A model generated the notes under the pieces. It made no database searches. It saw only the letters and a list, made by a program, of their open reading frames with translations, and had not been told where the DNA came from. Source: a virus. Taken from it: 64,000 nucleotides of DNA. This document shows positions 4,492 to 56,779 of the stretch, one piece after another (the first letter of the stretch is position 1; each line of letters begins with the position of its first letter). The stretch covers positions 159,358-223,357 of the IMG/VR virus record IMGVR_UViG_3300037725_000018, one strand, 5' to 3'. Made by a program: the position numbers and the translations under genes.

Positions 4492-4495
4492 ACCA

Positions 4496-4663: not shown

Positions 4664-4665
4664 AA

Positions 4666-4725
4666 ATGATCATCACGATTCCAGCGGAGAATAATAAAGA
4701 AAGAGAAAAATGGGAATGCTTGTAA
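4666..4725 (+). pseudogene. Truncated MVVIFE-family copy, 19 codons
   Basis: ATG at 4666 encodes MIITIPAENNKEREKWECL then stops. The N-terminus is a normal family start, but the central and C-terminal parts are missing. The next member begins inside it at 4710. It could be a relic left by deletion or recombination between adjacent copies, or a very short functional peptide. Confidence 0.45.
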
Positions 4726-4892: not shown

Positions 4893-4894
4893 GA

Positions 4895-5056
4895 GCAAAA
4901 GCAATAAGACAGCCATCCCGACCACTTTTCCTTGGACATGATACAGACAAAGAGTATTACAACATCCGGTCACACAAACCCGAAAGCGGTTTATTAGTAG
5001 GTGGTTTGCATATAAACGGGGAAAAGCTTTCTAGCCATTGGATATATGTCAGGTGA
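4895..5056 (+). pseudogene. Start-less remnant of a VNG-type MVVIFE gene
   Basis: The frame ending at TGA 5054-5056 reads through HDTDKEYYNIRSHKPESGLL and GGLHINGEKLSSHWIYVR. The ING turn followed by a hydrophobic strand matches the VNG subgroup (genes at 1326, 2015, 11227). No ATG/GTG start or N-terminal strand is present, so the 5' part appears lost. Confidence 0.4.
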
Positions 5057-24496: not shown

Positions 24497-24566
24497 TTAA
24501 CTATTTAGCTAGTTTAAAATTCGCCTGTGTTTCAAAAAGATGTGAAAACCTTTTAAAGTCTTTGTT

Positions 24567-24575
24567 AATATATAG
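24567..24575 (-). promoter_or_regulatory. CTATATAT late-promoter-like motif
   Basis: - strand CTATATATT, 71 bases before the start of the 1956-residue fibre gene; compare the T4 late promoter TATAAATA. Confidence 0.35.
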
Positions 24576-24580
24576 GTAGT

Positions 24581-27500: not shown

Positions 27501-27781
27501 TCATCGAGCGTGATCAACTCCCCTGTTAGAGAGTCTCGAACAAGCAAATCGCCAGCCGAATCCCCGCCGTTAGGGTTGGCAAGCGTGACTTCGCCAAACT
27601 CGTTGACTTCAAACACAGATTCTTCTGTTCCCGTGCTTGGGTTAAACGATTTCACGGAAAGGGAAGACTGTTCGGTTCGAGTCAAAATTTCATCTTCTTC
27701 AAACCGAATCGCAGCGCCGGAATAATCGTAGTCTACAGAAACCGTAGGTTGATTTTTAAGTTGTGTTTCTATAAGTGCCAT
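24581..27781 (-). CDS. Tail fibre/adhesin, 1066 aa
   Basis: Begins MALIETQLKNQPTVSVDYDY. Shares modules with the flanking giants: LLVRDSLTGELITLDDGG, ALVRNPNTGEIETFDLNA, GNGSFTVGYRRG and IAIGG-like head repeats. C-terminus QTPGNGVVVTTPDGTTQYRI, then AVDNNGNVTSEEI, is the same end module as in the proteins at 27797 and 34087. Likely a trimeric shaft protein on the same tail. Separated from the next fibre gene by 15 bases. Confidence 0.85.
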   Translation of the reverse strand: MALIETQLKNQPTVSVDYDYSGAAIRFEEDEILTRTEQSSLSVKSFNPSTGTEESVFEVNEFGEVTLANPNGGDSAGDLLVRDSLTGELITLDDGGSPALGARYEGNGALTLGYRSVSNGIGESSVVIGATESNPSSAPGTNNVAIGPGNSVGFNSTFNTETNLSFAFGSNNTLENTGTVGIGIGNTIYPENGYAFGRNNTLESSFGSESFYAIGENNTIFQDASDNTFAIGNDISWGSGDTSFLPTVIIGSGNLDIASSTDLAFLVGSGTDSARRNALAVKRLGNADEETVTHLDNLYLNIDPTASWRGLRGGRNIVISSSVESGVNEGSAFVSNSIIVDSIIGEGELGGSFVLNSSIVSEGVTQGGDGSMFINAELTPQNSVSEIYENAFIHSTRIGQDGQGNNDNSRKFAVTETGAGPISVFAFNDDTILAYQAVGPNNEREGSLVLVGTGSVDSPIKDVQNSLSIRGATMRAPRSVGIGPNVEVNTSDRIVLGNDNGTVVKQVQGSTADLFSVNLYNTSVGDAVNQVFTVEDDGTIKIGKPDSGSNISEALVRNPNTGEIETFDLNALNGGGGNGGAILAGLGLTSTFNASTGNTTLDVDPVEADTESDMILQDSSTGELISLSSGADLTAKHEGNGSFTVGYRRGTDTGQYSSVFGGADPSLASDTENFANGEGNVIVGHYNEINSGSFDQARFSAALGYGNYIRGERSVAIGGAGSFSGTRQNIEANNSFAFGIGNTNSSDETLIIGFQNNVTNSPTETVVLGNNLNLNSGGFGSGKTLIGTYNEGVSDASFEVGVGENDSTRITGAFIEVKTGTPIFTTTSVHLPSSTDSTLNDTGFGSPTNSIIINSTGDGSPSQSFLLNSDVGDAGVADSFFYNSSLTNVSNLTFFDNAMFTSSVDGVDATIDFGTFLIKTDIDSSNIDEFRQQNNSTSNVTVFAYNEKQILAYAGGLQRDGSVIIAGKNGGFIGNASNATSISGGNVSDGANNSVAIGGIASVSTSNTVAIGDTGGTDFYGGNVTIVDDEIDIQTPGNGVVVTTPDGTTQYRIAVDNNGNVTSEEI

Positions 27782-27796
27782 AAAATTTTTATGAAT

Positions 27797-30700
27797 TTAA
27801 AGTTCTTCTGATACAATCGTACCGTCGTTCTTGACTTTCACGCGAAATCTAGTTCCATCGGGGCTTTTCAAAATTTGCCCAAGCCCCGGCGTCGTAACCT
27901 CCATTTCTCCAGACGTGACCCGAACAGAACCGCCGAAGTCAACTGCTTTCGCCACAACGTCCGAAAGCTCTACGGTGAAAGCGTCCGTGCTAGCGTTGTA
28001 GCTGGAGTCAATTCCTATGCCGCCAACAACGTTTGTCGAGCCGCCACCACCGGAAAAGTTGCTTGCATCTATGTATTCTAGCTCTTTCGTACTTGGGTTT
28101 CGAACAAGCACTTGTGAGGCGTTGGTGCCCTCTGCGATTTCACGTCCAATTGACAGAACGGTTTCAACTTGTGTTACGCCATCTACGTTCTTAATGTATT
28201 CGCCTGTGGAGTCGTTTACCTGAAATCGTTCAACCGTTAAGCCTTCACGAACATATGTTCCGTCCCTGTAGGTGACGTACAATCCGTCTGCTCTTCCAAG
28301 TCCGTCATTAAATTCACTACCAAATCCTTGTTGACTTGGATTATCACCAACTCCAACAGCAAGTAAGCGGTCCTGCGGCGTGATATCTTCAATACCGTCG
28401 GGCTCGTTGCCTGTGCCAAGGTAATCTTCATTATAAACACCTTGAGCGATTCCAGCATACGTGCGAGAGATTGTATAGTTTCCCATTGCTGTGGAACTAT
28501 AGCCTTTTGCTTCTGTGTAAATTCCCATCGCGGTAGATCCAATGCCGCTTGTTTCTGTGTTGGACCCCATTGCAACGGATTGGTTGGCGTTTGCTATTGT
28601 GCTAATTCCCATTGCAATGGAGTAAAAACCGTTTGCTTCTGTGCCAGCCCCTATTGCCGTGGAAAAACCACCGCTTGCTTCTGTGTTCTCTCCCATCGCA
28701 ACAGAATTAGCACCAACCGCACCCGCACGTGAACCCAACGTGAACGCCCCATTTCCTTCGTATTTTGCGAAAGCACTTGACCCGTCAAGCGTAATCAACT
28801 CTCCGGTGGACGAGTCCCGAAGAATCATATCCGATTCCGTATCTGAAATAATTGGATCAACGTTGAACGTCGTATCGCCTGTTGACGGGTTGAACACGGA
28901 TTCAAGCCCAGTTCCTGCAACAATGGTTTCGCCTCCACTACCCAACGTGGACCCATCTACGTATTCAAGCTCGTTTGTGTTGGGGTTTCTGACGAGAACT
29001 TGGCTTGCGTCTGTGCCCTCAGAAATCTCCGGGCCAATTCGAAGCTCGGTTTCATAGTCCCCCAAACTAGCGTTGTAACTGTCCAGAGAAAGCCCGTGCC
29101 GGATGTGCGTGCCTTCACGAACTGTAACGTACAGCCCGTCCACTCTTCCGCGACCGTCAATGTAATTCCCGTCGCCGGGGCTTGTGCTTGGGTTTTCACC
29201 CACGCCCACCGCGAATATGCGCTCAGAAAGGGATTGGAAGTCCTCGATCCCCTGCTGTGCGGGTGGTGGATTCTGGGTGAGACCGCCAAGATAGTCTTCG
29301 TTGAAGAACCCAACAACCCGGCTTGCATACGGCCACGCCACGGTGTTGTCTCCCCCGGCGTGAGAAGATCGCCCTCTAGCAAGCGTGTCGGAACCTTCGC
29401 TGTGAGAACTTGTTCCAAGAGCTTCAGTCCGAAACCCCTCGGCGTGAGCAGCCGCGCCCCCCCCGGCGACGGTCGAGTTACCTTCAGCAACGCAGTTTGT
29501 CCCCACCGCTTGGGTTCCAAGGCCCAGAGCGACGGCACCAGAATCAGTCGCCTGCGCTCCCTGTCCAGCGGCGAACGCGCCTATGTCCGTGGCCCTAGAA
29601 CCGCTTCCTAAAGCAACTGCGGCTGTGGAAGTGGCCTCTGTGTTCTCGCCAAGGGCGATAGATGCTTCTCCGGTCGCAATAAGCCCGGTGCCTCCTGCGG
29701 CGAACGAGCCGTTTCCTATCGATTGGGCTGAATCTCTCTGCCCGAAGGTGAACGCTCCACTGCCTTCGTAACGCGCCCGGTCGCCCGGAGTACGCGCAAC
29801 TTCCCCGGAAACGTCTGCGTTCATCAAAAGCCCGCCCGTTTCGGCGCTTGATGAAATTTGTCGAGTCGTAAAAAATATTTTCCCGAACGTTTCATTTTGC
29901 TGCGGGATATCCGACTGGTCCAATCCGGGAAAGTTGCTAAGAAGCGTTCCCTGCCCGGTATCCACAACGCTTGTTGTTGTGGTGTCGGTGATCTCCGCAA
30001 TAAGCCTGTAATCAAGGCTAAAGGTGCCACTGTCGAACTGCTCGACAATAACGTAATACTTCTCTGCCGACGAATTTTCTTGCCAATTCACTTCAACGGG
30101 GTTGCTGGAGTCAGGCGTTGGAAGGCTTTGGCGAAAGTCACCGTCCCTTGCGGTGAGAAGCCCACCCGGCGTCTCAGCTAAGACGAACCACGTCAGAAAA
30201 AAGTTTCCCGAATTAGAGTGCTGGACGTTCACAGTTGTCGGGATATCGGGAACAAAACCCATGTCAAACGTGCCACCCGGTTGGACGGTGAAGCCTGAAG
30301 AAATAAGTGAAGACCCGTTGAACGCAAGGTCTGGGCTTGCCCCTAGACTTCCGTTATCGTTAAATTGAACTTCATTATCATTTCCAGAAGCAACAACGTC
30401 GAAGATGGTTTCGCCCGTTGAAGCGTTAAATGTGGAGGAAAGCCCAAGTCCCGCCTGTATGGTTGAACTCCCATTCCCGCCACCGGAAAATTGACTACCG
30501 GAAACTTTTTCTATTTTTCCGGTCGTTGGGTTGCGAACAAGAACTTGATCTGTATTAGAAGCATTTGAAGGTTCTGTTATTTCGATATCACCATTTTTTC
30601 GAAAAACAAACCCGTCACTTCTGTTCCCATCATTGTTTCCATTTCCAATGACAAATAGTTTGTCATTGTCTGTAGCTGTGTCGGTTCCGGCTTCATTAAA

Positions 30701-32179
30701 TTCGCCAAATATAGCCATTGGAACTTCGTTTGAATAATCAAGATTGAGACCATTACCGAACGCAAACTTTGAACCGTATGCGTCAGATTCTGTAAACGTT
30801 TCGGTATTCATCTCATTTCCGGTACCGAACACATAAATATCGCTAGTGGAACCAGCTTGATTTTCCCCTATAGCGTTTATTTCATTAAATCTACCAAAAA
30901 CGAAAACTCGGTCATTGCCCGTACGGAACCCGCCCGGTCGATAACGAAGAACGCCTTGATTAAAATCAAATTGACTAAGATCAGAGTTGCTTAATGGCTC
31001 ACTATTAAAACTTACAGTCCAAACATTTGTTGATGAATTGAAACTAGAATTTCCAGCTTCAACATAAGAAGACCCATTTACGCTTTGGTTATCAAACTCA
31101 AAAAGACTAAAACTTGGGTTTCCAAAAAGTTCGGGACCGTCTTCTATTTTTAATTCATTTGTGGTGCTGTTGTATTCAATTGCAAGGTCTGAAACATCTC
31201 TGTAATTGACGAAATTATCAATTCCAAAGTTTCCGGAATAATCGGAATCTACAAGTGATCCGGAACTACTAAACATCAAAGAGGTTAAAGTAGAATCAAT
31301 CAAGCCTTGTTGCCCAGCCTTAATTGAATTTCTAATCCCCCTAGCCGCCGCAGATTGGGCACCTATAAAGAGATTTGATGATGAATCATTCAAATTTCCA
31401 AACTCTACCTTGTCCGGGAGAAGTCCAAGATATGCATTATACTTTCCCCCATTAGCGTTAAAGTTTCCGCTTGCTAATCCTACTATTAAACTTTTGTCAA
31501 TGTTTTCTATTGTATTTGAGCTTGTAGAGGCAACATTGACAAAAGAGTCAGTTATGTTATTTAAGGACACGCCACCGTCTGCGGCATTAACAAAACTTCT
31601 TTCTGTATTACTTATTGAACCACTACGAACATTTGCAAAAGTATATTCTACGTCTTCACCAAATGTACCACCATCCCCTGTAAGAAAGGAAGCAATTTTA
31701 TCTGTGCCAAATCCAGCCCCGGAATACGTCATATCGTTTCCGGTTGCAAAAGTAAAACCAATGTTGGAAACTTCGGAACCTTGACCCGTGACAATCGAGT
31801 TTTCTACAACGCCGGGAATTGTAATGTTAACCCCGGTAATAAAACTTTCTTTTGCGGGAATTGCAAAATCAGCAATATCTACCCCAAATCCAGTAACAAA
31901 GTTAGATTCTCCAAATTCTGTTGACGTTGGGTTTCCAAGAACAACTTGTCCGGGTTCTCCAACCGAAAGGTCCCCAATGTTAGCGTCAAACGTTAGGTCC
32001 GGGCTTGAACCAAACGTACCTTGATCGTTGAATTGAATTTCGGTGTCGTTTCCTGCTACGCTAGCAAGGATATCGGCGTCAACGTCGAAAACGTAGTTTC
32101 CCGTTGAACTGTTGAAGGTAACGGAAACGTCACCGTCAGCAAAAAGTAGATCGTCTTCTGTTATGTGAAGTCCTGCCAT
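27797..32179 (-). CDS. Giant tail fibre/adhesin, 1460 aa
   Basis: Begins MAGLHITEDDLLFADGDVSV. Two large YadA-head-like blocks (AVALGSGSRATDIGAFAAGQ; AMGSNTETSGIGSTAMGIYT) alternate with QVLVRNP and DGLYVTYRDGTYVREGLTVE cassettes. A middle segment with WFVLAETPGGLLTARDGDFR and NSSAEKYYVIVEQFDSGTFS resembles a fibronectin- or Ig-like insertion. End module TPGLGQILKSPDGTRFRVKV, NDGTIVSEEL. Base composition shifts from AT-rich (30.6-31.9 kb) to GC-rich (29.0-30.3 kb) inside the gene. Probable receptor-contacting fibre. Confidence 0.85.
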   Translation of the reverse strand: MAGLHITEDDLLFADGDVSVTFNSSTGNYVFDVDADILASVAGNDTEIQFNDQGTFGSSPDLTFDANIGDLSVGEPGQVVLGNPTSTEFGESNFVTGFGVDIADFAIPAKESFITGVNITIPGVVENSIVTGQGSEVSNIGFTFATGNDMTYSGAGFGTDKIASFLTGDGGTFGEDVEYTFANVRSGSISNTERSFVNAADGGVSLNNITDSFVNVASTSSNTIENIDKSLIVGLASGNFNANGGKYNAYLGLLPDKVEFGNLNDSSSNLFIGAQSAAARGIRNSIKAGQQGLIDSTLTSLMFSSSGSLVDSDYSGNFGIDNFVNYRDVSDLAIEYNSTTNELKIEDGPELFGNPSFSLFEFDNQSVNGSSYVEAGNSSFNSSTNVWTVSFNSEPLSNSDLSQFDFNQGVLRYRPGGFRTGNDRVFVFGRFNEINAIGENQAGSTSDIYVFGTGNEMNTETFTESDAYGSKFAFGNGLNLDYSNEVPMAIFGEFNEAGTDTATDNDKLFVIGNGNNDGNRSDGFVFRKNGDIEITEPSNASNTDQVLVRNPTTGKIEKVSGSQFSGGGNGSSTIQAGLGLSSTFNASTGETIFDVVASGNDNEVQFNDNGSLGASPDLAFNGSSLISSGFTVQPGGTFDMGFVPDIPTTVNVQHSNSGNFFLTWFVLAETPGGLLTARDGDFRQSLPTPDSSNPVEVNWQENSSAEKYYVIVEQFDSGTFSLDYRLIAEITDTTTTSVVDTGQGTLLSNFPGLDQSDIPQQNETFGKIFFTTRQISSSAETGGLLMNADVSGEVARTPGDRARYEGSGAFTFGQRDSAQSIGNGSFAAGGTGLIATGEASIALGENTEATSTAAVALGSGSRATDIGAFAAGQGAQATDSGAVALGLGTQAVGTNCVAEGNSTVAGGGAAAHAEGFRTEALGTSSHSEGSDTLARGRSSHAGGDNTVAWPYASRVVGFFNEDYLGGLTQNPPPAQQGIEDFQSLSERIFAVGVGENPSTSPGDGNYIDGRGRVDGLYVTVREGTHIRHGLSLDSYNASLGDYETELRIGPEISEGTDASQVLVRNPNTNELEYVDGSTLGSGGETIVAGTGLESVFNPSTGDTTFNVDPIISDTESDMILRDSSTGELITLDGSSAFAKYEGNGAFTLGSRAGAVGANSVAMGENTEASGGFSTAIGAGTEANGFYSIAMGISTIANANQSVAMGSNTETSGIGSTAMGIYTEAKGYSSTAMGNYTISRTYAGIAQGVYNEDYLGTGNEPDGIEDITPQDRLLAVGVGDNPSQQGFGSEFNDGLGRADGLYVTYRDGTYVREGLTVERFQVNDSTGEYIKNVDGVTQVETVLSIGREIAEGTNASQVLVRNPSTKELEYIDASNFSGGGGSTNVVGGIGIDSSYNASTDAFTVELSDVVAKAVDFGGSVRVTSGEMEVTTPGLGQILKSPDGTRFRVKVKNDGTIVSEEL

Positions 32180-32193
32180 AAAAATACTTTAGT

Positions 32194-34050
32194 TTAGTAT
32201 GTTAAAGGTTTTTTACTAATTTTGTAGATTGCCTCTTCATCTTCGGTACTCGTTTCATCCGTGAAATAGATATTTCCTTTATACTCTCCAATAAAAGAGC
32301 CGAACCGTCCCGTAGGACGTTCACCACGATTTCTAGGTGCCCACCAAAACGAGCGTTGCCTGTCAAGATCGTAAACGTATCTCCCCGGATCTCCAGAAAA
32401 CGTGTTGAAGTGAATTTGATTGTTAGCCACTCCTTCTCGTGCTACCGTAACGTCTTCGGGATTTTCATCTGCGTCTCCTACAACGGATGGATCAATAGGA
32501 ACTGGCGTTATTTCTAAAGTTTGAAGATTTAGTTTCCTATACCCCTCCAGTATAATATTACTTCCATTTATCGAAGTAATACCGCCGATATAAGAGTGGT
32601 TATTATCGTCTGGAACTTCCCATTTCCGGTAGTAGTCTATGCTTTCGGTAACGATATCGATAACCACAATCTGTTTATAATACTTGTTATTAGCTGTGTC
32701 CAAACTAGCTGGAACATCCACATAAAGTTTACGGTTTTCCGAAGATATAAAAATGCTGTGGTCCGAAGTGGGAGTTATGTATTTTTGATCAATGTTTGAA
32801 GACCCTATTTGTATTTCACTATCAATTTCAAGAACACTAGATACCGTTTGATTCTCAATGTCGAAACGAAGAATTTCGGTATCCGCTCTAATGAAATACA
32901 AATACTCATTTCCCTGTATGTCCACATAGTAGCTTAACCCCTGAATACTGTCCGGTATGCCGGGATCGAAAATTTTTGTAACATAAGGTTCTCCGGTGCT
33001 AGGATTTATATCATTCAAGTCAATTTTCCATATGTTTCCACCACCCGGTTCATCGGCAAAGTAAAATGTGTCCCTTACAAGATTTAAGTCTGTTGGAAAG
33101 TCAACTTCTGTGGGCTGGTCAACCAAAACAAATTCTTCGGTGTCTAAGTCCAGAATGGAAATTGCATCTATGCCATCAAACCCACCGTTATTGAATTTAA
33201 ACACATACTTTCCTATTACTTGGTTTCTTGTGCCTTGAGACAAAGCTGTTGTTCCGTCGTCTATGATTTCATAAGACGTATCATATACATCGCCTTGAAC
33301 AAACTCTATACTATCATTGTTTACTTTGAATTCAGCGGTTTTGTTTGGCTTCACAACTTCTGTGGGGGACTTCCCTTCCGATTCTGGAAACCGAACCGGA
33401 TAATCTGTGCGGTTTTCTATGGTGAACTTTTGTCCATCTCCAAGATCGTCAAATTCGCTAGGCTTAAATTCATTGTAACCACGATTAAATGGGTCTTGAA
33501 CGTCTCCGGTGTCCCAAGGCGTTTCAGCGGTAAACACAAACGTATCACCATCAGAAATTTCTTCAACTTCATAAAATCCTGAGTCAATGGTCGTAGTCTC
33601 TGGTTCCACCGGAAATGAGGTTTTACCGAAGACTAATTCTCCCCCGGAATTATAGTTTGATAAAGACTCTCCCGGTGGAACAGATACAAAGTCTTTTCCT
33701 TCTACTCCACCTGTAAAGCCAAAAGAAGACGAGTCAGGTGCAACTAAAACCTTAACAGAAGCGCGGTTTTTAATTGTCACTTCTCTGTTTTCAGAAAAAG
33801 AAGAAGGTGGAAGAACTACATTTATTTGTATCAGTTCAGATCCTGTGTTCTTTATCACGTATACATCACTTTCTACGTTATCCTCCCCAACTAGATTTAT
33901 TCCGGCTGTACCATCTACATCTATAATGCGAGATTTTAGTTTTCTTTCATCTGTTACTTCAAATTCTCCTGTGGAGGCGTTAAAAGAAAAGTCAACGTCC
34001 CCGGATGAATTTTCAAATGAATCTTTCGTTGAGTAGCTATCTACTGCCAT
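32194..34050 (-). CDS. Fibre protein with beta-propeller-like domain, 618 aa
   Basis: Residues 1-110 begin MAVDSYSTKDSFENSSGDVD and carry the SFNASTGEFEV phrase found in the other fibres. The C-terminal ~330 residues contain repeats such as TFYFADEPGGGNIWKIDLND, YLYFIRADTEILRFDIENQT and KLYVDVPASLDTANNKYYKQ, the pattern of a YncE/NHL-type beta-propeller. Propellers on tail tips commonly bind ligands, so this may be a receptor-binding tip; that is inference. Confidence 0.7.
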   Translation of the reverse strand: MAVDSYSTKDSFENSSGDVDFSFNASTGEFEVTDERKLKSRIIDVDGTAGINLVGEDNVESDVYVIKNTGSELIQINVVLPPSSFSENREVTIKNRASVKVLVAPDSSSFGFTGGVEGKDFVSVPPGESLSNYNSGGELVFGKTSFPVEPETTTIDSGFYEVEEISDGDTFVFTAETPWDTGDVQDPFNRGYNEFKPSEFDDLGDGQKFTIENRTDYPVRFPESEGKSPTEVVKPNKTAEFKVNNDSIEFVQGDVYDTSYEIIDDGTTALSQGTRNQVIGKYVFKFNNGGFDGIDAISILDLDTEEFVLVDQPTEVDFPTDLNLVRDTFYFADEPGGGNIWKIDLNDINPSTGEPYVTKIFDPGIPDSIQGLSYYVDIQGNEYLYFIRADTEILRFDIENQTVSSVLEIDSEIQIGSSNIDQKYITPTSDHSIFISSENRKLYVDVPASLDTANNKYYKQIVVIDIVTESIDYYRKWEVPDDNNHSYIGGITSINGSNIILEGYRKLNLQTLEITPVPIDPSVVGDADENPEDVTVAREGVANNQIHFNTFSGDPGRYVYDLDRQRSFWWAPRNRGERPTGRFGSFIGEYKGNIYFTDETSTEDEEAIYKISKKPLTY

Positions 34051-34086
34051 TTTGCTGTTTTTTACTTGGTTTTTGTTTGAAAATCG

Positions 34087-34758
34087 TTAAACTGTTTCTG
34101 TTTTCAAAAGCCCGTCGTTTCCAAGCCGAACACGTTTTCTTTCGTTTCCGTCCGGACTTACAAGAATAATCCCTTTTCCCGGCTCATAAAACTCTGCATC
34201 CCCACCAACGTTTAAAGTGAATATTTCGCTAAGGCTTGAGTCTTCTGCCAAAATAAGCGGGTCCGTTTGCCCGGAGTTGGCCGTAATTGTGATTTGGTTG
34301 AGTCTTGTGTCGTCTGTTTGCCCGGAACCTACAAGACTTGTTCTCAAGTTTCCGGAATTTGTAACGTCAACAAGCCACTCGTTTCCGTTATCGGATTGAA
34401 GAACAATTCCGTCCGGGTCAATTGAAACTTCTGTTGCTCCGGTGGATGCATTAAAAGAAGTGACAATTCCGTTCTTACCGTCTAAATTCGCAGTAACGGC
34501 TTGGCTAAGTTCATCTTCTGTAACAACGCTTTGGACTGCCCCACCATCGTCGGGGTCGGTTCCGATTTTCCACTCCTCGCTTATGTTGTCATAATAAAGA
34601 ACCGCAGAAGGTTTGTTTCCGCGCCCAATCCGAAGACCTCCAAACTCCGGAAGAGCCGTTAACGTAGGGTCGGGCGTATTGACAAAATCGCTATTAAAAT
34701 CAACGATCTTGTCTTTTGCCTTAAAGTCTTCTACAAGTGTATCTACTAGTGTTGCCAT
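34087..34758 (-). CDS. Short fibre paralogue, 223 aa
   Basis: Begins MATLVDTLVEDFKAKDKIVD. It has GLRIGRGNKPSAVLYYDNIS, TSFNASTGATEVSIDPDG and the C-terminal module EPGKGIILVSPDGNERKRVR, NDGLLKTETV shared with the 1066- and 1460-residue proteins. It looks like a minimal fibre: N-terminal attachment part plus end module, without the long head repeats. Confidence 0.75.
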   Translation of the reverse strand: MATLVDTLVEDFKAKDKIVDFNSDFVNTPDPTLTALPEFGGLRIGRGNKPSAVLYYDNISEEWKIGTDPDDGGAVQSVVTEDELSQAVTANLDGKNGIVTSFNASTGATEVSIDPDGIVLQSDNGNEWLVDVTNSGNLRTSLVGSGQTDDTRLNQITITANSGQTDPLILAEDSSLSEIFTLNVGGDAEFYEPGKGIILVSPDGNERKRVRLGNDGLLKTETV

Positions 34759-39552: not shown

Positions 39553-39993
39553 TTATTTAAATTCAACAGTAACAAATCCCGCATCGTCTTTTCCAAAACT
39601 CACGTTTTGAAACTTTGAACGAATAGCTTTTCTGTATATTCTTTCTCTTTTTGCTGTAGACCCATCGTAGGCGTATCCTTTAAGATACGGATAATCTGAA
39701 AGCTCGGTCTTCCAAAGGTCCTGCGCTATATCAAAAACAGTTGAAACCACCTTTGTTGCTTTATCTTCACCTGTAAGTTCAAGCCAGCTTCCACCACGAA
39801 CTGCAAAGTTTATGTCAACATACTCTCTTCCATTGTTATCAAATACAACGAAATAATTGTTTTCATTTGTTTCGAAGCTAGCCTTTACGTCTACCTGTAC
39901 AGTATCTCCACGTCTGTTTATATTCTTAGTGTTATATTTCCATTCATATTGTTCATCAAAAATTTCCGTAAGTAAGTCGTTCAGCTTTATCAC
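39553..39993 (-). CDS. Hypothetical phage protein, 146 aa
   Basis: Begins MIKLNDLLTEIFDEQYEWKY, an N-terminus like those of small proteins in T4-like marine phages. It has a beta domain (YFVVFDNNGREYVDINFAVR), a helix (TKVVSTVFDIAQDLWK) and a C-terminal strand ending FVTVEFK. Function unknown. Sits between the M15 peptidase and DHFR. Confidence 0.65.
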   Translation of the reverse strand: MIKLNDLLTEIFDEQYEWKYNTKNINRRGDTVQVDVKASFETNENNYFVVFDNNGREYVDINFAVRGGSWLELTGEDKATKVVSTVFDIAQDLWKTELSDYPYLKGYAYDGSTAKRERIYRKAIRSKFQNVSFGKDDAGFVTVEFK

Positions 39994-48835: not shown

Positions 48836-49624
48836 CTACTTGCCGATTTGCCTTTTGATTTCTTCACGGACCACCTTCCGAAGCATTTGTTCTTCAACGG
48901 TTTCCCACTCGCCCCCAAGTTCTTCGTACCTTTGAACAGCCCAACCATTAGCGTAAGCGGAATTTCCGGTAATTGTTACTGTTGACCCTTGACGCATAAC
49001 CCACGTTCCGTGTTCAGTCTGTGGGCACCAAACATCTTCTCTTCCGTCGTCTTCAATGTGCATGTTTTGTAAACCTCGGTGGCGGCGCTCTACGTCAAAA
49101 CTTGATAATTCTTCAAGGGCTTCTCCTTCAACACTTTCCGAAAGCTTCGCAGATGTTAAAAGGTTGTAGCTCGTTGGAAGCTCAGACGTTTCAATGAGCC
49201 TTCGGTCTTCAAACTTGTTTTTTCGAAAGGCAACCCACTTGTGCCCCGGAGTGCAGCGAACATCAAAACTTACCCTGTCTTTTGACATGCGCTTTATCGG
49301 AGCATCTTCGAATCTATGTTTATCTTCAACTTTGCTCCATGAAAGCACATTTTCATCTATATCATAAGCCAAAATTTCATCGCCAATTTCAATTCGGTCA
49401 TGGGCTTTCCAACCTTCGCGAGTCAAGGCTTGACTGTCAAGGGGGACGCAAGGGTAAACGTCAAATCCATCCCCGTCGTTTGGGGCCTCGACGGTTACTT
49501 CCTCCCCGTCCACAGTTCGGGACACGGAGTTTTTTTCGCCCTTGGTTACGGCAAGCACGTCTTGCCAGAGGTCTTCATCTTTTGGCCTGTTATCTGTATC
49601 TTCTGTTAAACGTCTTCTTTTCAT
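48836..49624 (-). CDS. DUF5872-like protein interrupted by a mini-intein, 262 aa
   Basis: The N-extein is residues 1-58 (with VSRTVDGEEVTVEAPND and GFDVYP), and the C-extein 222-262 begins SAYANGWAVQRYEELGG and ends MLRKVVREEIKRQIGK. Splicing joins them as VYP-SAYANGW, the intact form of a motif known from phage proteins (YPSAYANG). The host protein is then only about 99 residues, with the same C-terminal basic helix as the neighbour at 48105. The intein is described separately. Confidence 0.75.
   Translation of the reverse strand: MKRRRLTEDTDNRPKDEDLWQDVLAVTKGEKNSVSRTVDGEEVTVEAPNDGDGFDVYPCVPLDSQALTREGWKAHDRIEIGDEILAYDIDENVLSWSKVEDKHRFEDAPIKRMSKDRVSFDVRCTPGHKWVAFRKNKFEDRRLIETSELPTSYNLLTSAKLSESVEGEALEELSSFDVERRHRGLQNMHIEDDGREDVWCPQTEHGTWVMRQGSTVTITGNSAYANGWAVQRYEELGGEWETVEEQMLRKVVREEIKRQIGK
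48962..49450 (-). mobile_element. Mini-intein (no homing endonuclease)
   Basis: 163 residues, C59 to N221. It starts with Cys in CVPLDSQALTREGWKAHDRI, then GDEILAYDIDENVLSW, block B TPGHKW with Thr125 and His128, and block F/G VWCPQTEHGTWVMRQG, ending TVTITGN before Ser222. The nucleophile Cys, block-B Thr-x-x-His, terminal Asn and +1 Ser are all present. The residue before Asn is Gly rather than the usual His. Length and lack of LAGLIDADG or HNH motifs show that the endonuclease domain is absent. Confidence 0.8.
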
Positions 49625-50605: not shown

Positions 50606-51256
50606 CTAAAATCCGTTTAAACGCTTTCTCATGCTTTCTACAGAACCATCATGTCCGAACATCGTTTTTAGCTTCTGCACATACATACGAATATGTTCGT
50701 CCGTTTGTTCCGAGCACCACCAATCGATGTGCTGGTTTAAATCCAGTGTACGCAACCTTTCGATAAGCTTTTTTGCCCCGGACGGGCGAATCACGTAAGC
50801 CACGAAACCTACGTTTGGCTTCTTTGAATAACTTGATGGACTAGAGTACGCAGGCTTTATTTTCTTAGGGTCGTCTTCAAGCAAATCGTGGTTTGGATTC
50901 GGTCTTCGGGCAAACAGGTTGTAAAAATCCCCGTCTGGAAGCCGGGTTAAAATGCTTTCAATCTTGTCTTCAAGCCCTTTAACAAGCGGAACCGCATCGT
51001 CTTCTAAGACCAAAACTGGTACTTCCATACTTTGAACATGCATCCAAAGAGAAAGGTGGGCAATCGCCGCCCCTGCTCTACCTTTCTTTGAATCTTCATA
51101 ATTGGGATTTTTGACTTTCGACAGCGCCGTTTGCACCCGAACGTCTTCGGGGTTTTCAACCACGTCTACGGGTTCCCACTGCAAAAGATCAAACGGAAAC
51201 TTTTTTTGTTGAAGCCTGAAATCTTTATCACTCGCAATACAAAATGTTTTGAACAT
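50606..51256 (-). CDS. Glycosyltransferase, family 25-like
   Basis: 216 residues. N-terminal MFKTFCIASDKDFRLQQKKF, then GRAGAAIAHLSLWMHVQSME, and the acidic VLVLEDDAVPLVKG, which fits the LPS-type GT25 fold (EDD as the metal site). The C-terminal half GFVAYVIRPSGAKKLIERLR follows the family's usual order. No membrane segment. Probably transfers a sugar to a cell-surface or virion glycan; substrate unknown. Confidence 0.75.
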   Translation of the reverse strand: MFKTFCIASDKDFRLQQKKFPFDLLQWEPVDVVENPEDVRVQTALSKVKNPNYEDSKKGRAGAAIAHLSLWMHVQSMEVPVLVLEDDAVPLVKGLEDKIESILTRLPDGDFYNLFARRPNPNHDLLEDDPKKIKPAYSSPSSYSKKPNVGFVAYVIRPSGAKKLIERLRTLDLNQHIDWWCSEQTDEHIRMYVQKLKTMFGHDGSVESMRKRLNGF

Positions 51257-51259
51257 TCT

Positions 51260-51496
51260 TTAATACTGGTTTTTATGATGCTCGTTGACGGTGGGGTCTT
51301 CAAAACCAAGAGATTTCAAAGCTTTCTTCATTCGATCCGGGTCATTCAAGTCTTCGGTTCGAATCTAATCGGCATAGCCGAGCTTTTCAACACGCTCGTA
51401 ATACATGTCCCAATACCTACTAATCGCTTCAAGTTTTGAAAGATCCGTTGAAAAGTTCGGAAAGCATCGGGTGTGAAGTGATAACCGATTAGTCAT
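51260..51496 (-). pseudogene. Small gene with an in-frame TAG
   Basis: ATG at 51494-51496 begins MTNRLSLHTRCFPNFSTDLS and runs to LEAISRYWDMYYERVEKLGY, then AD and TAG at 51365-51367. The same frame continues IRTEDLNDPDRMKKALKSLG to TAA at 51260. Both parts read like protein of similar composition, so this is probably one gene of about 78 codons broken by a nonsense change. The 43-codon first part might still be made. Confidence 0.5.
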
Positions 51497-52276
51497 TTAT
51501 TGAAACATGTCCAATGGAATATTAAAGTAGTTGTCCACAACTTGACCGTCTCCGGGAGAGGGCTTCCAATTTTTGATGTTTCGGACCTTTCCAACAAGAT
51601 TCGAGCGGTCTAGTCTTCTTCTTGACGTGTTTTTATACTTCCAGAGAAGGTTTTCTCGAACGTTCTTCATGTGATGCATATGAACATCTTCAGGATGAAA
51701 AAGATGTCCTACGTTGTCTTCGGTATTTTTAATTTTTCTAGTAGGGTCCACCTTACAAAAGAAATCGTTTGCTATTTTGGTATTTTGATTAATTTCGCAA
51801 ATGAATGGAACATGAAAACGCCCACCTTCAGAGTACCCTTCCTTTTGATAAATGGGAAGATTCCAGTAGTTTTTGATTTTACAGGCGGTAAGAGGCAGCG
51901 TCCGGTTTTTTACTTGCCTCTTTGCCCATTCAAACTCGCGGGTCCTGTAAAATTCGTCTACATCCATAGACACAAAATGCGTACAGCCGTTTTCTAGGCA
52001 GTCTTCAATTCCGGCCATTCGTTTCTTTTTTTCATGACCCTTGGCTATGTCCACAGTTCCGGTGTCTTTTGGGTTCATCTTAATCAACTTATCAACAAAC
52101 CCCTCTTTTCTTAGAGTTTTCAACCGTTTTTTATCTACTTCTCGGATGCCTTGCCCATAGTAAGATTCGGTTTGATATACAACGTTAATATAATCTACGT
52201 GGTTTTGGACAGAAAGAATCGAATACTTTAAAAGCTCAATTCCATCAAATGCAGAATAAGAAAGTGCAAGTTTCAT
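51497..52276 (-). CDS. Glycosyltransferase with DxD motif (GT2/GT92-like)
   Basis: 259 residues. Begins MKLALSYSAFDGIELLKYSI. The middle has THFVSMDVDEFYRTREFEWA, where DVDEF is a DxD metal/nucleotide-sugar site. The C-terminal segment around HLFHPEDVHMHHMKNVRENL contains conserved His and basic residues. The outline matches GT-A fold enzymes of the GT92 type (DUF707/23-related). Substrate unknown, but it lies in the sialyltransferase operon. Confidence 0.7.
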   Translation of the reverse strand: MKLALSYSAFDGIELLKYSILSVQNHVDYINVVYQTESYYGQGIREVDKKRLKTLRKEGFVDKLIKMNPKDTGTVDIAKGHEKKKRMAGIEDCLENGCTHFVSMDVDEFYRTREFEWAKRQVKNRTLPLTACKIKNYWNLPIYQKEGYSEGGRFHVPFICEINQNTKIANDFFCKVDPTRKIKNTEDNVGHLFHPEDVHMHHMKNVRENLLWKYKNTSRRRLDRSNLVGKVRNIKNWKPSPGDGQVVDNYFNIPLDMFQ

Positions 52277-52277
52277 G

Positions 52278-52901
52278 TCACAAGTGGTTTATCGTTCCTT
52301 CATCAATCCAATGCTGAATAACTTTTGCTTCGTTTTCTAGGTCATGAATCCGGTCCAATGTATTTTCGGAGGCGCTATCGTCGTAGTAGTGAACACCCGT
52401 GTCTCCAGTTTCGGTCAAGCTATCAAATCCGGTGACGTACACGTTTTGATATCTGTCGTCCATTATGCAGTGAGACACAATGATAAGACCAGATGAAAAA
52501 TCTTTTCGTTTATGCATCCCCAGATTGTTTTTTCGGTTGCACCGATAAACGTGTTTTTTTACTCTATTGTAATTGATCGTTTCAAACTGATCTCCCATTT
52601 TTCTTTTAAGCATGTGAAGACCCCTACGAAGACTGGATTTGTGAGTCCACGTCATTAAAAAGTAAACACTTCCAAACTTCTCTTTAAAGTAGTTTTGGTC
52701 GAACTTCTTTTTCATGTCTCGAAGGGTATATATATTCGTGTTAAAAGATATCGAATCTACCTTCGAGCCAACACGGTCTTCATTTTCAAAAATTCCTTTT
52801 TCAAACCCCTTAAATCGAATGACGTGATTGAAGCTGTCAATCACGTCTCCATTTTTATCATCTAATAAGGTGTCTCCGGATGCGGCAATCAAAGTCTTCA
52901 T
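52278..52901 (-). CDS. GT29-like sialyltransferase homologue 3
   Basis: 207 residues. A degenerate sialylmotif L: GDVIDSFNHVIRFKGF then VGSKVDSISFN (residues 18-54). Motif S region DFSSGLIIVSHCIMDDRYQN (134-153) followed by VYVTGFDSL. His186-x4-Glu191 in RIHDLENEAK fits motif VS. More divergent than the two homologues upstream, so its acceptor or donor may differ. It belongs to the same operon. Confidence 0.7.
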   Translation of the reverse strand: MKTLIAASGDTLLDDKNGDVIDSFNHVIRFKGFEKGIFENEDRVGSKVDSISFNTNIYTLRDMKKKFDQNYFKEKFGSVYFLMTWTHKSSLRRGLHMLKRKMGDQFETINYNRVKKHVYRCNRKNNLGMHKRKDFSSGLIIVSHCIMDDRYQNVYVTGFDSLTETGDTGVHYYDDSASENTLDRIHDLENEAKVIQHWIDEGTINHL

Positions 52902-52929
52902 AATCGTTTCGTCTTTGGTTTGTGCTTAA

Positions 52930-53433
52930 TCAAACCTCCTCAATTATATCTTTCCAAGCAACCTTTCCAAAAACTCTAGCAAGCCTGTACGCGGTCCACC
53001 GAAGATATTCTGAATCTTTCGGGTCTGAAACCAATACAAGGTCTGCCTGTTTTTGAGTCAAACGCCCACCCTTAATTTGCTTCCAGCTAGTTGTTTCTGC
53101 AAATCCAACAGACGGGTTCACAGAGGGTTCTTTAACTTGATAGGTAACTTCCCCTTTGTTTTTATAAATCCAGTCGTGAGCCACCACAGAACCTTCTAAA
53201 GCGTAATAGTCAAAAAGAAGTACCTTCAAAGGTTGAACGGGCCTTGGGATGCTCATTTCATATTCATAACCTTCCGGAACCGTAAGTTTTGCCTTCTGCC
53301 CATTTAAGAGGGGAAAAACGTGTGTATAGTCTTCACATAAGGTTCGTTTTTTCTTTCCGTTTGACGGGTGGCTTTTCGGGCTGTCAACTTGCCCACATTC
53401 CCAATCTGAAATCAATCTTTCTTCGATTCTCAT
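52930..53433 (-). CDS. DUF1353-family protein, 167 aa
   Basis: The region VPEGYEYEMSIPRPVQPLKV, then YYALEGSVVAHDWIYKNKGE and the C-terminal RWTAYRLARVFGKVAWKDII matches DUF1353, a phage family often near tail genes. The His-Asp pair in AHDWIY is family-typical, and its function is unknown. Its presence inside the glycan operon is unusual. Confidence 0.6.
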   Translation of the reverse strand: MRIEERLISDWECGQVDSPKSHPSNGKKKRTLCEDYTHVFPLLNGQKAKLTVPEGYEYEMSIPRPVQPLKVLLFDYYALEGSVVAHDWIYKNKGEVTYQVKEPSVNPSVGFAETTSWKQIKGGRLTQKQADLVLVSDPKDSEYLRWTAYRLARVFGKVAWKDIIEEV

Positions 53434-53801
53434 ACTTCTTTTTTGCTAATTCGATCTTGTATAATGATTTCTCCTTCAACCGGAAAACGAGAGTTTTCTT
53501 CGGAAGGAACGTCTACTCTAAGGTCGTAAACCGATTTTCCCGGTGATATAACTTGTACGTCTTCCGGAGCAAGGTTGAACTTGACTTCTGAAGAATCTTC
53601 ATCTAAAGAAAGTCTGCCGTTTTCTATGCTACATTCAAGGAGGCTAGTTTCATCGGATCTTCTTCTTTTTATCCGGACAAAAAAGTTCCACTCGGACACG
53701 TCTTTTGGGGTTCCGTCGCTTTTAAGAAAACGGTCAATTTCTAAGTAAAGACCGTTTCCTTCGCTTACGTGATAGTTTTTCTCTTTAGGCTGTGAGTTCA
53801 T
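53430..53801 (-). CDS. Beta-sandwich virion-type protein, 123 aa
   Basis: Begins MNSQPKEKNYHVSEGNGLYL. The pattern EWNFFVRIKRRRSDETSLLE, VKFNLAPEDVQVISPGKSVY and DLRVDVPSEENSRFPVEGEI resembles the Ig-like N-terminal domains of baseplate upper proteins (BppU-like). It may be a virion component. The ATG overlaps the NeuB stop by 4 bases. Confidence 0.55.
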   Translation of the reverse strand: MNSQPKEKNYHVSEGNGLYLEIDRFLKSDGTPKDVSEWNFFVRIKRRRSDETSLLECSIENGRLSLDEDSSEVKFNLAPEDVQVISPGKSVYDLRVDVPSEENSRFPVEGEIIIQDRISKKEV

Positions 53802-54727
53802 TTTCTAAGATCCTTTCTCTTTTCTTTTTCTTCATCTAGGAGCGTTCTTGGCGAGTTCCCGGACAGACTTTTTTCTGTATTCACAAGAATTTCAATAAGC
53901 CGATACATTTCATCCGGCTCCAAAGAAGCAAACTGGTCGCTCCCCCACATATCTCTGTCTAAGGTCACGTGGCGTTCCATCCACTTCGATCCCAAGGCAA
54001 CGGCTACTGCTGCGGTTTCAAGTTCGGTTTCATGCCCGGAGTACCCAAGCTCTTTACCGTGACCCGTTCCGTACATCTGTTGAAGTGTTCTCTTTAGGTG
54101 TCGGATGTATTGAAGTTGAAGATTTTCTGCTTTTGTCGGGTAGCTTGAAACCGAATGCATAACAACGTCCGGGTCGCAGTTCCAGATGCTTTCTTGAATT
54201 TCCCGCTCAGTTGACATTCCCGTTGAGACAATGAGAAAGTCAAACTTTTCTCTTGCGTATTCGGTAAGCTTTTTGTTTGTAAGATGTGCAGATGGAATTT
54301 TGCCTATGTCCGTGTATTGGGCCATAAAGTCAACACTTTCGGTGTCCCATACGCTAGAGAAAATGGAAACATCCAAGTCCCGGACATACCGAAAAAGTTC
54401 TTCAAACTCTTCCTTGCCAAACTCGATATACTCTTTGTACTTAATGTACGGGATAGGGTCCTCTTCAAATGGGGTTTGGCGAAGCTGGCTTTTTTTCCAT
54501 TCGGGGACGCAAACTTCCGGTGTTCTTTTTTGAAACTTCACAAAATCAAACCCACACGTTTCAGACACATCAATTAACTTTTTCGCGGTGTCTACGTCTC
54601 CGTTGTGGTTGATTCCGATTTCGCCAACCGAAGTTACGTTTTTCGGCGTAACTTGACGTTTATCTGTTGATTTTAAAAAAGAGTCGGTTTGGTTTTTTAC
54701 GTCGTCATATGTGTAAAGTGTGTTCAC
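53798..54727 (-). CDS. neuB: Nonulosonate (sialic acid) synthase, NeuB-like
   Basis: 309 residues, GTG start. SVGEIGINHNGDVDTAKKLI with E36-D44 is the NeuB signature. The Mn ligands His191 (HSVSSYP) and His232 (LGYSGHE), TGMSTEREI, and ERHVTLDRDMWGSDQFASLE near residue 251 are all conserved. It condenses PEP with ManNAc or a related sugar. The usual C-terminal SAF domain (about 60 residues) is missing; the protein ends in charged KEKRKDLRK. Lack of SAF, which helps bind ManNAc in characterised enzymes, suggests a different substrate or a partner protein. Confidence 0.85.
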   Translation of the reverse strand: MNTLYTYDDVKNQTDSFLKSTDKRQVTPKNVTSVGEIGINHNGDVDTAKKLIDVSETCGFDFVKFQKRTPEVCVPEWKKSQLRQTPFEEDPIPYIKYKEYIEFGKEEFEELFRYVRDLDVSIFSSVWDTESVDFMAQYTDIGKIPSAHLTNKKLTEYAREKFDFLIVSTGMSTEREIQESIWNCDPDVVMHSVSSYPTKAENLQLQYIRHLKRTLQQMYGTGHGKELGYSGHETELETAAVAVALGSKWMERHVTLDRDMWGSDQFASLEPDEMYRLIEILVNTEKSLSGNSPRTLLDEEKEKRKDLRK

Positions 54728-54777
54728 GTTACTTTTAATAATATCTTGGTAGTTTGTTCTTCAAAACCTGTGTAACA

Positions 54778-55434
54778 CTAGTATTTGATTTGAATTTTAT
54801 CTTGTTGTTGCATTCGTTTCATAAGTTTCTTCTCTGCGCTGTAGTCGTGTGGCCCGGAAATGTCTTGATCCAACTCTTCAAAATAATGTCTTTTTTCCAC
54901 GTCTGACTTCATGTGAAAACCAAAACCATAAAGATCAATCTCTACGTCACTTCCAGAACACTCGCTTAACAGAATCGTCATTAAAAGTCCAAGACTCGCT
55001 TGCCCGTGAGTGTTATACTTTCGAAGCTTACGTTTTGACAGAGAATAAATTCTATTGTTTAAAAACAAAAGCTCGTTTGCCACATCTTCATAAAATTCAA
55101 CTGCCCGTTTTCTGCGTTTTGATCCAGAGGGTTTGAATATAAGACGTTCTCCGTCCGTGATTCGGGCCATATCCTCTTTAGTTGTTTCAGAGGCGTTAAT
55201 TCCGTGTCCTAAATGCATTACGGAGTTTAAACACCGAAACGTCGTCTTCGACCCAACGTGCTTTTCGTACCCCTCTACCTCTGCACCGTTGAACCTTAAA
55301 ACCCAATCATGGTCGTCAATTTCGCTTCCAAGTGTGTTTTCTAACACAACGCCGGAGTTCCCAACAATCGCCACAGATGAAGGGATCGTGTAGTTGAACT
55401 TAGATTGAAAATACGTTGAAATTCCTTTTGGCAT
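54778..55434 (-). CDS. GT29 sialyltransferase homologue 1
   Basis: 218 residues. Residues 21-70 match sialylmotif L closely: VAIVGNSGVVLENTLGSEID, then DHDWVLRFNGAEVEGYEKHV and GSKTTFRCLNS. Motif S is THGQASLGLLMTILLSEC (142-159), then IDLYGFGFHM. Motif VS is His196-x4-Glu201 (GPHDYSAEKK). These motifs bind CMP-sialic acid in animal enzymes. No signal peptide or membrane anchor, so it would act in the cytoplasm. GT29 enzymes are largely eukaryotic, with few bacterial or viral cases. Confidence 0.85.
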   Translation of the reverse strand: MPKGISTYFQSKFNYTIPSSVAIVGNSGVVLENTLGSEIDDHDWVLRFNGAEVEGYEKHVGSKTTFRCLNSVMHLGHGINASETTKEDMARITDGERLIFKPSGSKRRKRAVEFYEDVANELLFLNNRIYSLSKRKLRKYNTHGQASLGLLMTILLSECSGSDVEIDLYGFGFHMKSDVEKRHYFEELDQDISGPHDYSAEKKLMKRMQQQDKIQIKY

Positions 55435-55440
55435 TTTGAT

Positions 55441-56082
55441 TTATTTCACAATATCAAATTGATTAGACTCGCAAAACCTGTTCACAACTTCTTCTTCTTT
55501 ATCCCACGTATGAGAACCGTCGTGGTGGTCGCTCCATTGTTCCCAATAATGGCGGTTTTCAACTTTTTCTTGGTGAAACCCAAATCCGTAAAGCGTAACA
55601 TGCTCGCAAAGGCAAGAAAACGTAAGACAAGCAAACATTCCGGTTGAAGGGTGTCTATTTAACTTGTGTTTTACATCTTTTGAAATATATTCTTTAAATT
55701 CTTCAGTAAGCTCGTAAATCGTATTTGAACTATGCGTTAAATTTCGAGCAACGTTTAAAGACCTTTCGTTAACGGGGACGAATATCAAATTTTGATTTCT
55801 AAGCGTTTTAAGCCAGTTTGAAGGCGTAGACGTGTAGTTAAGCGTTTTTCCCTGCTGAAGAAGCCCGTTGACAAGCCGAAACGTCGTTTTTGATCCAACG
55901 TCTTCTTTATGTCCTTTCACTTCTGCGGCGTTCATCCGAACAACACATTCATGGCTGTCAATTTCTTCTCCATTTCCAGAACCGGAAAGGATTCCGCTAT
56001 TTCCCACCACCGCACAATCAGTGAAGCTAACTGTTTTATCTTTGAATATGCGTTGGTGGGGTTTGGGTTGCCGCTTAATCAT
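55441..56082 (-). CDS. GT29 sialyltransferase homologue 2
   Basis: 213 residues. Motif L: CAVVGNSGILSGSGNGEEID, then VVRMNAAEVKGHKEDVGSKT (23-67). Motif S: NRHPSTGMFACLTFSCLCEH (142-161), then VTLYGFGFH, almost the canonical form. Motif VS: His191-x4-Glu196 in SHTWDKEEEV. Paralogous to the gene just downstream (54778) but clearly diverged, so it may use a different acceptor or linkage. Its start overlaps the NeuA stop by 8 bases. Confidence 0.85.
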   Translation of the reverse strand: MIKRQPKPHQRIFKDKTVSFTDCAVVGNSGILSGSGNGEEIDSHECVVRMNAAEVKGHKEDVGSKTTFRLVNGLLQQGKTLNYTSTPSNWLKTLRNQNLIFVPVNERSLNVARNLTHSSNTIYELTEEFKEYISKDVKHKLNRHPSTGMFACLTFSCLCEHVTLYGFGFHQEKVENRHYWEQWSDHHDGSHTWDKEEEVVNRFCESNQFDIVK

Positions 56083-56779
56083 TCACTTTTTCTTGATATT
56101 GCCTCCAATCTTCTTTTGTGTCTACGTCAATAACTCTGTTGTTTAGTCGGTAATATATAGTATCTTTGTTATAGAGGTTTTTATTTAGAGAATCAAGTTC
56201 GTCCACCCGAAATACAGATACAAAATGGCTGTACTCGTAGACGTTTTCTCCGGAATGGATTTCAAAGTCAAGGTCTTTGAGCTTCCCCTTTGCCTCTTGC
56301 CTACGAAACTTCCCCCTTTCAGATGGAAAAACGTGACGCGCCTTCATCGTATCTGAATCAAGACGCATCATAAGATGTGAATACGTGTCTTCGGTCGGGG
56401 GCTGCAGGCAAAGAAGGGAAGAAGCTTGGTTCTTTTTGTAAAAGCCAAGGATACTTCGAACGTCTCGCTTGTATTCACGCTCCGGGTAGGTAGGGTACAA
56501 AAGAACAATGTCGTCGTTGTCGTAGAAATCAAACTTTGAAAAGACGTGTTCGATTACAGGCTTTATACTTGTTTCATCCTGTGCAAGTTCTTTGGGGCGT
56601 TCGACAAGCTTCATCCGGCTTTCACGAACGAACTCTTGAATTTTCGGGTCGTCTGTTGTCACAATGATTCGGCTTAAAACTCTACGTGGAAATTTTTCTT
56701 TGATGATCGGGACAAGCTTCCGATTTTTATTCGGAAAACCTTTTGATCCCTCTCTTGCAGGTACAATATAGTGGAACAT
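56075..56779 (-). CDS. neuA: CMP-nonulosonate (acylneuraminate) cytidylyltransferase, NeuA-like
   Basis: 234 residues. Residues 6-20 VPAREGSKGFPNKNR form the CTP-binding signature, followed by RIIVTTDDPKIQEF. AQDETSIKPVIEHVF and the late VIDVDTKEDW (metal-binding Asp pair) also fit the family. It activates the NeuB product to the CMP form used by GT29 enzymes. Length is that of a single-domain CMP-sialate synthetase, with no extra acetylesterase domain. First gene of the cassette, so transcription runs NeuA, GT29, GT29, NeuB. Confidence 0.85.
   Translation of the reverse strand: MFHYIVPAREGSKGFPNKNRKLVPIIKEKFPRRVLSRIIVTTDDPKIQEFVRESRMKLVERPKELAQDETSIKPVIEHVFSKFDFYDNDDIVLLYPTYPEREYKRDVRSILGFYKKNQASSLLCLQPPTEDTYSHLMMRLDSDTMKARHVFPSERGKFRRQEAKGKLKDLDFEIHSGENVYEYSHFVSVFRVDELDSLNKNLYNKDTIYYRLNNRVIDVDTKEDWRQYQEKVND

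Follow-up and report, generated by a model that had tools for sequence, protein, structure and literature searches.

The stretch of viral DNA analysed here (the window; 64,000 nucleotides, positions 159,358 to 223,357 of IMG/VR record IMGVR_UViG_3300037725_000018, and so a single metagenomic record) carries a minus-strand gene, P0001, which very likely encodes a small phage protein interrupted by a HINT-fold mini-intein that removes itself and has lost its endonuclease. The interrupted protein corresponds to one half of DUF5872, and its partner would be the product of the neighbouring gene P0002. Sequence comparison and structure prediction show the intein, its junction, its host family, its lineage and the segment that is missing from it, whereas we infer its splicing activity, its homing history and the role of its host.

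The P0001 precursor and its insert

The minus-strand open reading frame at 48836–49624 is free of stops and encodes 262 residues. Its parts are listed below, with residues numbered in the precursor.

48836–49624, minus strand: P0001 precursor gene, comprising N-extein, mini-intein and C-extein (stop-free ORF; AlphaFold pLDDT 83.7)
49451–49624, minus strand: N-extein, 58 residues, ending in FDVYP (aligned to DUF5872-type exteins and to the intein-free protein L291)
48962–49450, minus strand: predicted mini-intein, 163 residues, Cys59 to Asn221, without an endonuclease domain (matches to phage DNA-polymerase inteins; Foldseek TM 0.83)
49448–49450, minus strand: Cys1, the putative A1 nucleophile (Cys in all complete DUF5872 inteins examined)
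49235–49252, minus strand: block B, T125-P-G-H128-K-W130, with TxxH and the B12 Trp of the W/C/T triplet (alignment)
49085–49141, minus strand: short linker, about residues 162 to 180, at the site of the relatives' segment of about 85 residues (HMM and alignment)
49025–49027, minus strand: block F Cys200 (F4), second residue of the triplet (alignment)
48959–48970, minus strand: block G, with T219 (G5, third residue of the triplet), the penultimate G220 and the terminal N221, then Ser222
48839–48961, minus strand: C-extein, 41 residues from the +1 Ser222, SAYANGWAVQRYEELGGEW... (sequence; motif intact in at least 120 viral contigs)

The first-pass annotation had described a 163-residue mini-intein with Cys1, TxxH, a C-terminal Asn and a +1 Ser, and the translation, the homology of the insert and its predicted HINT fold all bear this out. 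The insert occupies exactly 163 codons (precursor residues 59 to 221) and carries block A (starting CVPLDSQALTREGW), block B (RCTPGHKW), block F (DVWCPQTEHGTWVMRQ) and block G (VTITGN, followed by Ser), with the A1 Cys, B10 His, terminal Asn and +1 Ser all present. In a tblastn search of 50,697 phage records, its residues 1–163 match the DNA-polymerase inteins of phapecoctaviruses and justusliebigviruses with 39–40% identity (E 1e-9), and the matched stretch in Escherichia phage PaulScherrer was annotated as an intein by its depositors; weaker matches in the same records lie in other typical intein hosts, namely tape measure, TerL, portal, RtcB and methylase. The best match to the AlphaFold model among solved structures (Foldseek, PDB) is the class 3 split intein AceL NrdHF, with a target-normalised TM of 0.83, and the predicted HINT fold is assigned from a TM of 0.83 to 6zgq; DnaB mini-inteins, BIL and Hedgehog domains follow. 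On this evidence from homology and from a predicted structure, the insert is confirmed as an intein. Whole-ORF searches of Pfam, NCBIfam and PDB sequences returned nothing significant for an intein, and the Pfam intein models gave no significant match to this divergent insert, so that routine Pfam annotation would overlook it. A related-locus search with P0001 found no close relative. A T4 late-promoter-like match upstream of P0001, TATAAATT, was dropped because its frequency in the window is not above chance.

Other inteins lacking annotation were also seen. A distant relative of the window intein lies in a DNA-methyltransferase-like ORF of a 484-kb uncultured phage (LR756508.1) and ends MFVTGN↓SGFPKSY, the arrow here and below marking the extein junction. 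The DNA polymerase of Vibrio phage vB_CoeS_P1 (PV206818.1) contains an endonuclease-free intein of about 133 aa, and an HNH endonuclease gene lies directly downstream of the polymerase, an arrangement that would fit collaborative homing.

Removal of the window intein would join ...GDGFDVYP to SAYANGWAVQRYEELGGEW..., restoring FDVYP-SAYANGWA in a predicted product of 99 residues with the junction peptide FDVYPSAYANGWAVQR. The extein sequence thus upholds the earlier claims that the host has only 99 residues after splicing and that the insertion falls exactly within the motif, at YP↓SAYANG. An ungapped match to intein-free relatives had been proposed as a check, and it is provided by L291, an intein-free protein that aligns across the junction without a gap (BLASTP, 45% identity over 78 aa, E 1e-20), as expected of an in-frame insertion. 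L291 is exactly the sub-variant to which the N-extein of P0001 belongs, with about 22 additional residues ahead of FDVYP. An intact YPSAYANG is encoded by at least 120 other viral contigs, found by a DNA scan of IMG/VR for YP-x-AYANG, in the pattern (P)TNPxLWxxxKxxAKxKFDVYPSAYANGWAxxxYKxxGGGW or a variant of it, and the motif is invariant in an alignment of 31 diverse members. As judged from these sequences, the junction is real. We found no mention of the motif in the literature searched, which took in few subscription papers.

The host domain and its recurrent inteins

The host of the intein appears, by sequence, to be the N-terminal part of DUF5872, a domain of about 45 residues found in phages and giant viruses; it is known from algal giant viruses (PMC12085832) and occurs among the viral models searched here. 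A standalone relative matches DUF5872 (PF19197) with 40.2 bits, and a longer protein, L015, with 29.1 bits (residues 60–166, E 1.7e-6), against a cut-off of 27.5. The spliced window extein falls below this cut-off, so that it is assigned to the family by its motif and by its alignment to the L291 version. The YPSAYAN domain is modelled as a helix-loop-helix (helix 14–27, loop, helix 34–46; pLDDT 83.6), with the motif at the loop and the start of helix 2. After splicing, P0001 would contain both YPSAYAN and an amphipathic equivalent of helix 1 (RPKDEDLWQDVL, corresponding to PTNPxLWxxxK), with the 22-residue insertion between them, and would end in a helix, LRKVVREEIKRQ, ahead of the stop codon at 48836–48838. 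The fold model found no match in the PDB, and its matches among viral models are to unnamed or DUF proteins only.

The Pfam model itself spans two modules, the YPSAYAN domain and then a WVDISR..CG..YPKCVPKxKA domain, and both are present within the single protein L015. The second module is encoded next to P0001:

48105–48830, minus strand: P0002, 241 aa, carrying the WVDISR..CG..YPKCVPKxKA domain, the remaining half of DUF5872, twice (phrog_23735, E 7.7e-21)

P0002 begins 5 bases downstream of P0001, and the presence of the two modules as adjacent genes in the order of L015 suggests that their products act together. Short standalone copies of the YPSAYAN domain lie beside an SU10-type adaptor gene (L199) and near a terminase-large-subunit-like gene (L054), and a DUF5872-type gene adjoins the terminase small subunit in Synechococcus phage S-BM3; this head-and-packaging context makes a virion-assembly or packaged role plausible. 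The mature host protein probably acts together with P0002, either during virion assembly or as a packaged component, a virion role being suggested indirectly by the context. In the literature naming DUF5872 that could be searched, again with few subscription papers, we found no mention of inteins.

Several further features of these genes and of the phage may be recorded here. P0002 contains two LRxxIRxEI-type motifs and the same motif stands at the end of P0001, while an LRxxIRxEI/L-type motif lies near the N-terminus of three more proteins of the record (G000 4304–5053, 28633–28923 and 39559–39825, minus strand), possibly as a signal shared by several of its proteins. The L015 protein (517 aa, from IMGVR_UViG_3300034064_001519) combines both modules with a region matching phrog_7595, and by eye its C-terminal half resembles a phage capsid-maturation protein. 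The phage is T4-like, with a gp23 match of E 3.7e-67 and a matched terminase. As read from translations, a run of glycosyltransferase-like ORFs at window 50606–56779 (minus strand), with an N-acetylneuraminate-synthase-like gene at 53798–54727 and a CMP-sugar-transferase-like gene at 56075–56779 (minus strand), resembles a nonulosonic-acid or glycan cassette. At 18626–34758 (minus strand) very long repetitive ORFs of 1956, 1066 and 1460 aa contain repeats of a head-domain-like kind (AIGxxxxA, VALGSGSxA), and smaller ORFs nearby end in a chaperone-of-endosialidase-like domain; by eye these are probable tail fibres.

Scanning IMG/VR with DNA patterns for the host motif and for the F-block signature WCPxTExxTW, we find the latter in at least 119 contigs; a YPSAYAN-type C-extein follows in 60/119 among the matches listed, a proportion that describes the hosts of this lineage and not of inteins generally, as the pattern was derived from the lineage of the window intein. 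Both ends could be parsed in 47 contigs, and the inteins lie in three registers: YP↓SAYAN (28 of the 47; 237–260 aa), (W/F)PSAYA↓SGA (17; 278–281 aa) and YPSAY↓SN (two, of 304 and 310 aa). The second register is no parsing error: phrog_727 aligns with a spliced WPSAYASGALVKC-type sequence, in the (W)PSAYASGALVKC form, along 43 contiguous columns (E 1.4e-22). In a complete IMG/VR pattern scan, 18 other contigs have an intein at GN↓SAYANG, all of the same lineage; the same pattern gave 43 matches in 84,980 bacterial and archaeal species genomes, none of them in a DUF5872 intein. Near-duplicates occur among the parsed inteins, which leave 35 distinct DUF5872 inteins.

In a maximum-likelihood tree built from 69 splicing domains and 135 columns, all DUF5872 inteins, including that of the window, form one group (87/79), with all inteins of other hosts outside it. 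Within it the PSAYA↓S inteins are a fully supported group and the YP↓S inteins one group with weak support (54/64). The window intein is placed with the two YPSAY↓SN inteins (96/94), and the AU test marginally rejects its placement in the YP↓S group (p 0.036); most of its top BLAST matches are to YP↓S inteins. That it belongs to the lineage is thus better supported than its exact place there. These data point to the N-terminal domain of DUF5872 as a repeated target of inteins in dozens of uncultured phage contigs.

Known inteins are found chiefly in large enzymes, most of which bind nucleotides, and neighbouring insertion points are normally counted as separate alleles. The first-pass annotation had called the host unusual, which holds for its very small size, but it is not unique: the same lineage occurs in dozens of contigs, and the predicted mature hosts, measured from each ORF's first Met, include proteins of about 44 aa (L137), 55–56 (L198, L199), 62 (L210) and up to 78 (L172). 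Here, then, a single lineage would have repeatedly invaded, at three neighbouring points, a viral domain of about 45 residues, in hosts as small as 44–78 residues. The domain may thus offer a natural setting for asking what an intein requires of its host, which could be conservation and abundance of the DNA target and perhaps not enzyme function. As inteins prefer conserved sites (PMC2814812), it is a reasonable inference that the small host protein is important, as had been suggested earlier, and YPSAYANG would stand out as a motif that phages find hard to do without. Against taking this as settled, an intein at the motif is rare: one sample had it in 0 of 120 and a complete scan in 3 of 42, so that only a few per cent of YPSAYANG motifs carry one.

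The relatives have about 85 residues between the two halves of the intein, REVYLASSIVYDG...FGFxQKNxDHxxAxLLAAYLNGY, which represent a single degenerate LAGLIDADG-like stretch. By alignment and HMM this endonuclease-derived segment is absent from the window intein, which has the short linker instead: an HMM of the relatives aligns to it only at model positions 5–158 and 245–322, and it is the only copy without the segment among the matches listed. There is no LAGLIDADG or other endonuclease domain between its blocks B and F, and we found no homing endonuclease gene adjoining P0001 and, in the 223-kb record as a whole, no second intein of the lineage. With its endonuclease segment lost, the window copy should not home on its own. 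About 31 kb from P0001, at window 17387–17869 (minus strand), lies the closest free-standing HNH-like gene, a weak HNH match, and further HNH matches occur in the record at about 106 kb and 108 kb.

Splicing chemistry and alternative readings

Catalytic positions are all intact in the window intein (C1, T67, H70, W72, C142, T161, N163 and +1 S in intein numbering) and the splicing residues are conserved among its relatives; self-removal of the intein after translation is most likely on this reading of the sequence. In the mechanism that we propose, the HINT-fold mini-intein interrupts the N-terminal DUF5872 half, of about 45 residues, between Pro and Ser of YP↓SAYANG; Cys59 (A1) would attack the preceding bond, the acyl group would be transferred to Ser222, Asn221 would cyclise, and the exteins of 58 and 41 residues would be joined, giving a protein of 99 aa in which the helix-loop-helix YPSAYANG domain is whole. 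F4 Cys200 and G5 Thr219 may help or replace Cys1. The penultimate Gly had been called atypical, a view that we do not share: Gly stands at this position in 66 of 68 related inteins and also in the active mycobacteriophage RDF intein, in which its change to His impairs splicing (PMC5050341). The lineage would have colonised the motif repeatedly in its three neighbouring registers, presumably homing by means of the LAGLIDADG-like segment, and the window copy, now without it, would be kept by vertical inheritance and by the difficulty of precise deletion.

One alternative concerns the chemistry alone. More unusual than the penultimate Gly is the coexistence of Cys1 with the class 3 triplet; the first-pass annotation had mentioned neither this triplet nor the missing endonuclease segment. 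The triplet of class 3 inteins is complete in the window intein (W72, C142, T161), and Cys1 and TxxH, of class 1, occur together with it in 34 of the 35 distinct DUF5872 inteins (the F4 Cys being fixed by the search pattern, B12 and G5 free, and Cys1 demanded by the first parser, although three complete inteins missed by the parser also have it) and in 26 of 33 inteins of other hosts. It could accordingly be asked whether F4 Cys200 attacks first, with Cys1 a bystander in a class 3-like lineage, which is compatible with the rest of our explanation. The AceL NrdHF structure is the top PDB match, and a +1 Ser is common in class 3 inteins. Conservation of the G5 Thr has been described as specific to class 3 (PMC7891396). 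Nevertheless, class 3 is defined by the absence of the A1 nucleophile (PMC3196547), and Cys1 is present here as in all complete DUF5872 inteins; the intein is thus formally of class 1 type with a class 3 triplet. The Thr of TxxH, which is of class 1 type and generally missing from class 3 (PMC6195587), is also retained. Overall we think class 3 splicing rather unlikely. A direct transition from class 1 to class 3 was judged improbable after a failed conversion (PMC7664689), and the coexistence of Cys1 with the triplet offers a natural system for asking whether class 3 arose from class 1. It is possible, and we suggest it tentatively, that the lineage has become a specialist of a single short motif in a viral domain that looks non-enzymatic, moving among three registers that lie within five residues of YPSAYA(S/N)G, that its class 1 Cys1 and TxxH with a complete W/C/T triplet could represent a living intermediate or a dual-mechanism state, with a bearing on the disputed origin of class 3 inteins, and that the window copy is the first of its members without an endonuclease.

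We think it improbable that the insert is a decaying pseudo-intein that no longer splices, the function of the 99-aa host being gone or supplied by another gene or phage. The endonuclease segment is indeed missing, a dead intein in tiny exteins has a precedent (PMC3196547), and a search of the phage record found no second YPSAYANG protein, so that failure to splice would simply lose the function; but the catalytic positions are intact, the frame is open, and the exteins keep the invariant motif and match L291. Autoprocessing of the bacterial intein-like (BIL) or Hedgehog type, by which cleavage without splicing would free two short peptides, is scarcely credible, for despite the common fold and the BIL2 and Hedgehog structures among the Foldseek matches, the C-terminal Asn is followed by a +1 Ser, the joined exteins rebuild an invariant motif that is intact elsewhere, and the insertion site is conserved, whereas BIL domains occur in variable regions (PMC2814812). 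If the window intein splices as we propose, such a small endonuclease-free domain with a +1 Ser and tiny native exteins may also serve protein ligation.

Comparison with known systems

The DNA polymerase intein of phapecoctaviruses and justusliebigviruses (PaulScherrer MZ501100, phi92) has nearly identical blocks A, F and G (VWCPQTExGTWVMRQ...TITGN) and shares Cys1, the W/C/T triplet and the penultimate Gly with the window intein, but it has 245 aa with an endonuclease-derived segment, a +1 Cys and DNA polymerase I as its host. The YP↓SAYAN inteins of IMG/VR (L191, L170, L188 and others) agree with the window intein in host motif, register and lineage; they differ in their size of 237–263 aa and in having the segment of about 85 residues and an N-extein without the 22-residue insertion. 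The mycobacteriophage RDF intein is likewise a phage intein with a penultimate Gly, and it splices natively (PMC5050341), although its host differs and its endonuclease domain is present.

A host comparable in its small size to that of the window intein is known from one earlier case that we found, the Arth_1007 intein of Arthrobacter FB24, which is phage-derived and has only 66 extein residues; that intein, however, is an inactive pseudogene without the B10 His and F4 Cys (PMC3196547), both of which the window intein has. The class 3 inteins AceL NrdHF, Mch DnaB1 and Msm DnaBi1 resemble it in the W/C/T triplet (with Met in place of Trp in AceL) and the HINT fold, but lack the Cys1 nucleophile that it possesses. 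Finally, the mycobacteriophage inteins TerL1-a and TerL1-b are inserted into a single conserved motif at two points just one residue apart (PMC5050341); their host is a P-loop ATPase, whereas the DUF5872 host is a tiny domain that looks non-enzymatic and has three registers, each apparently used by the same lineage.
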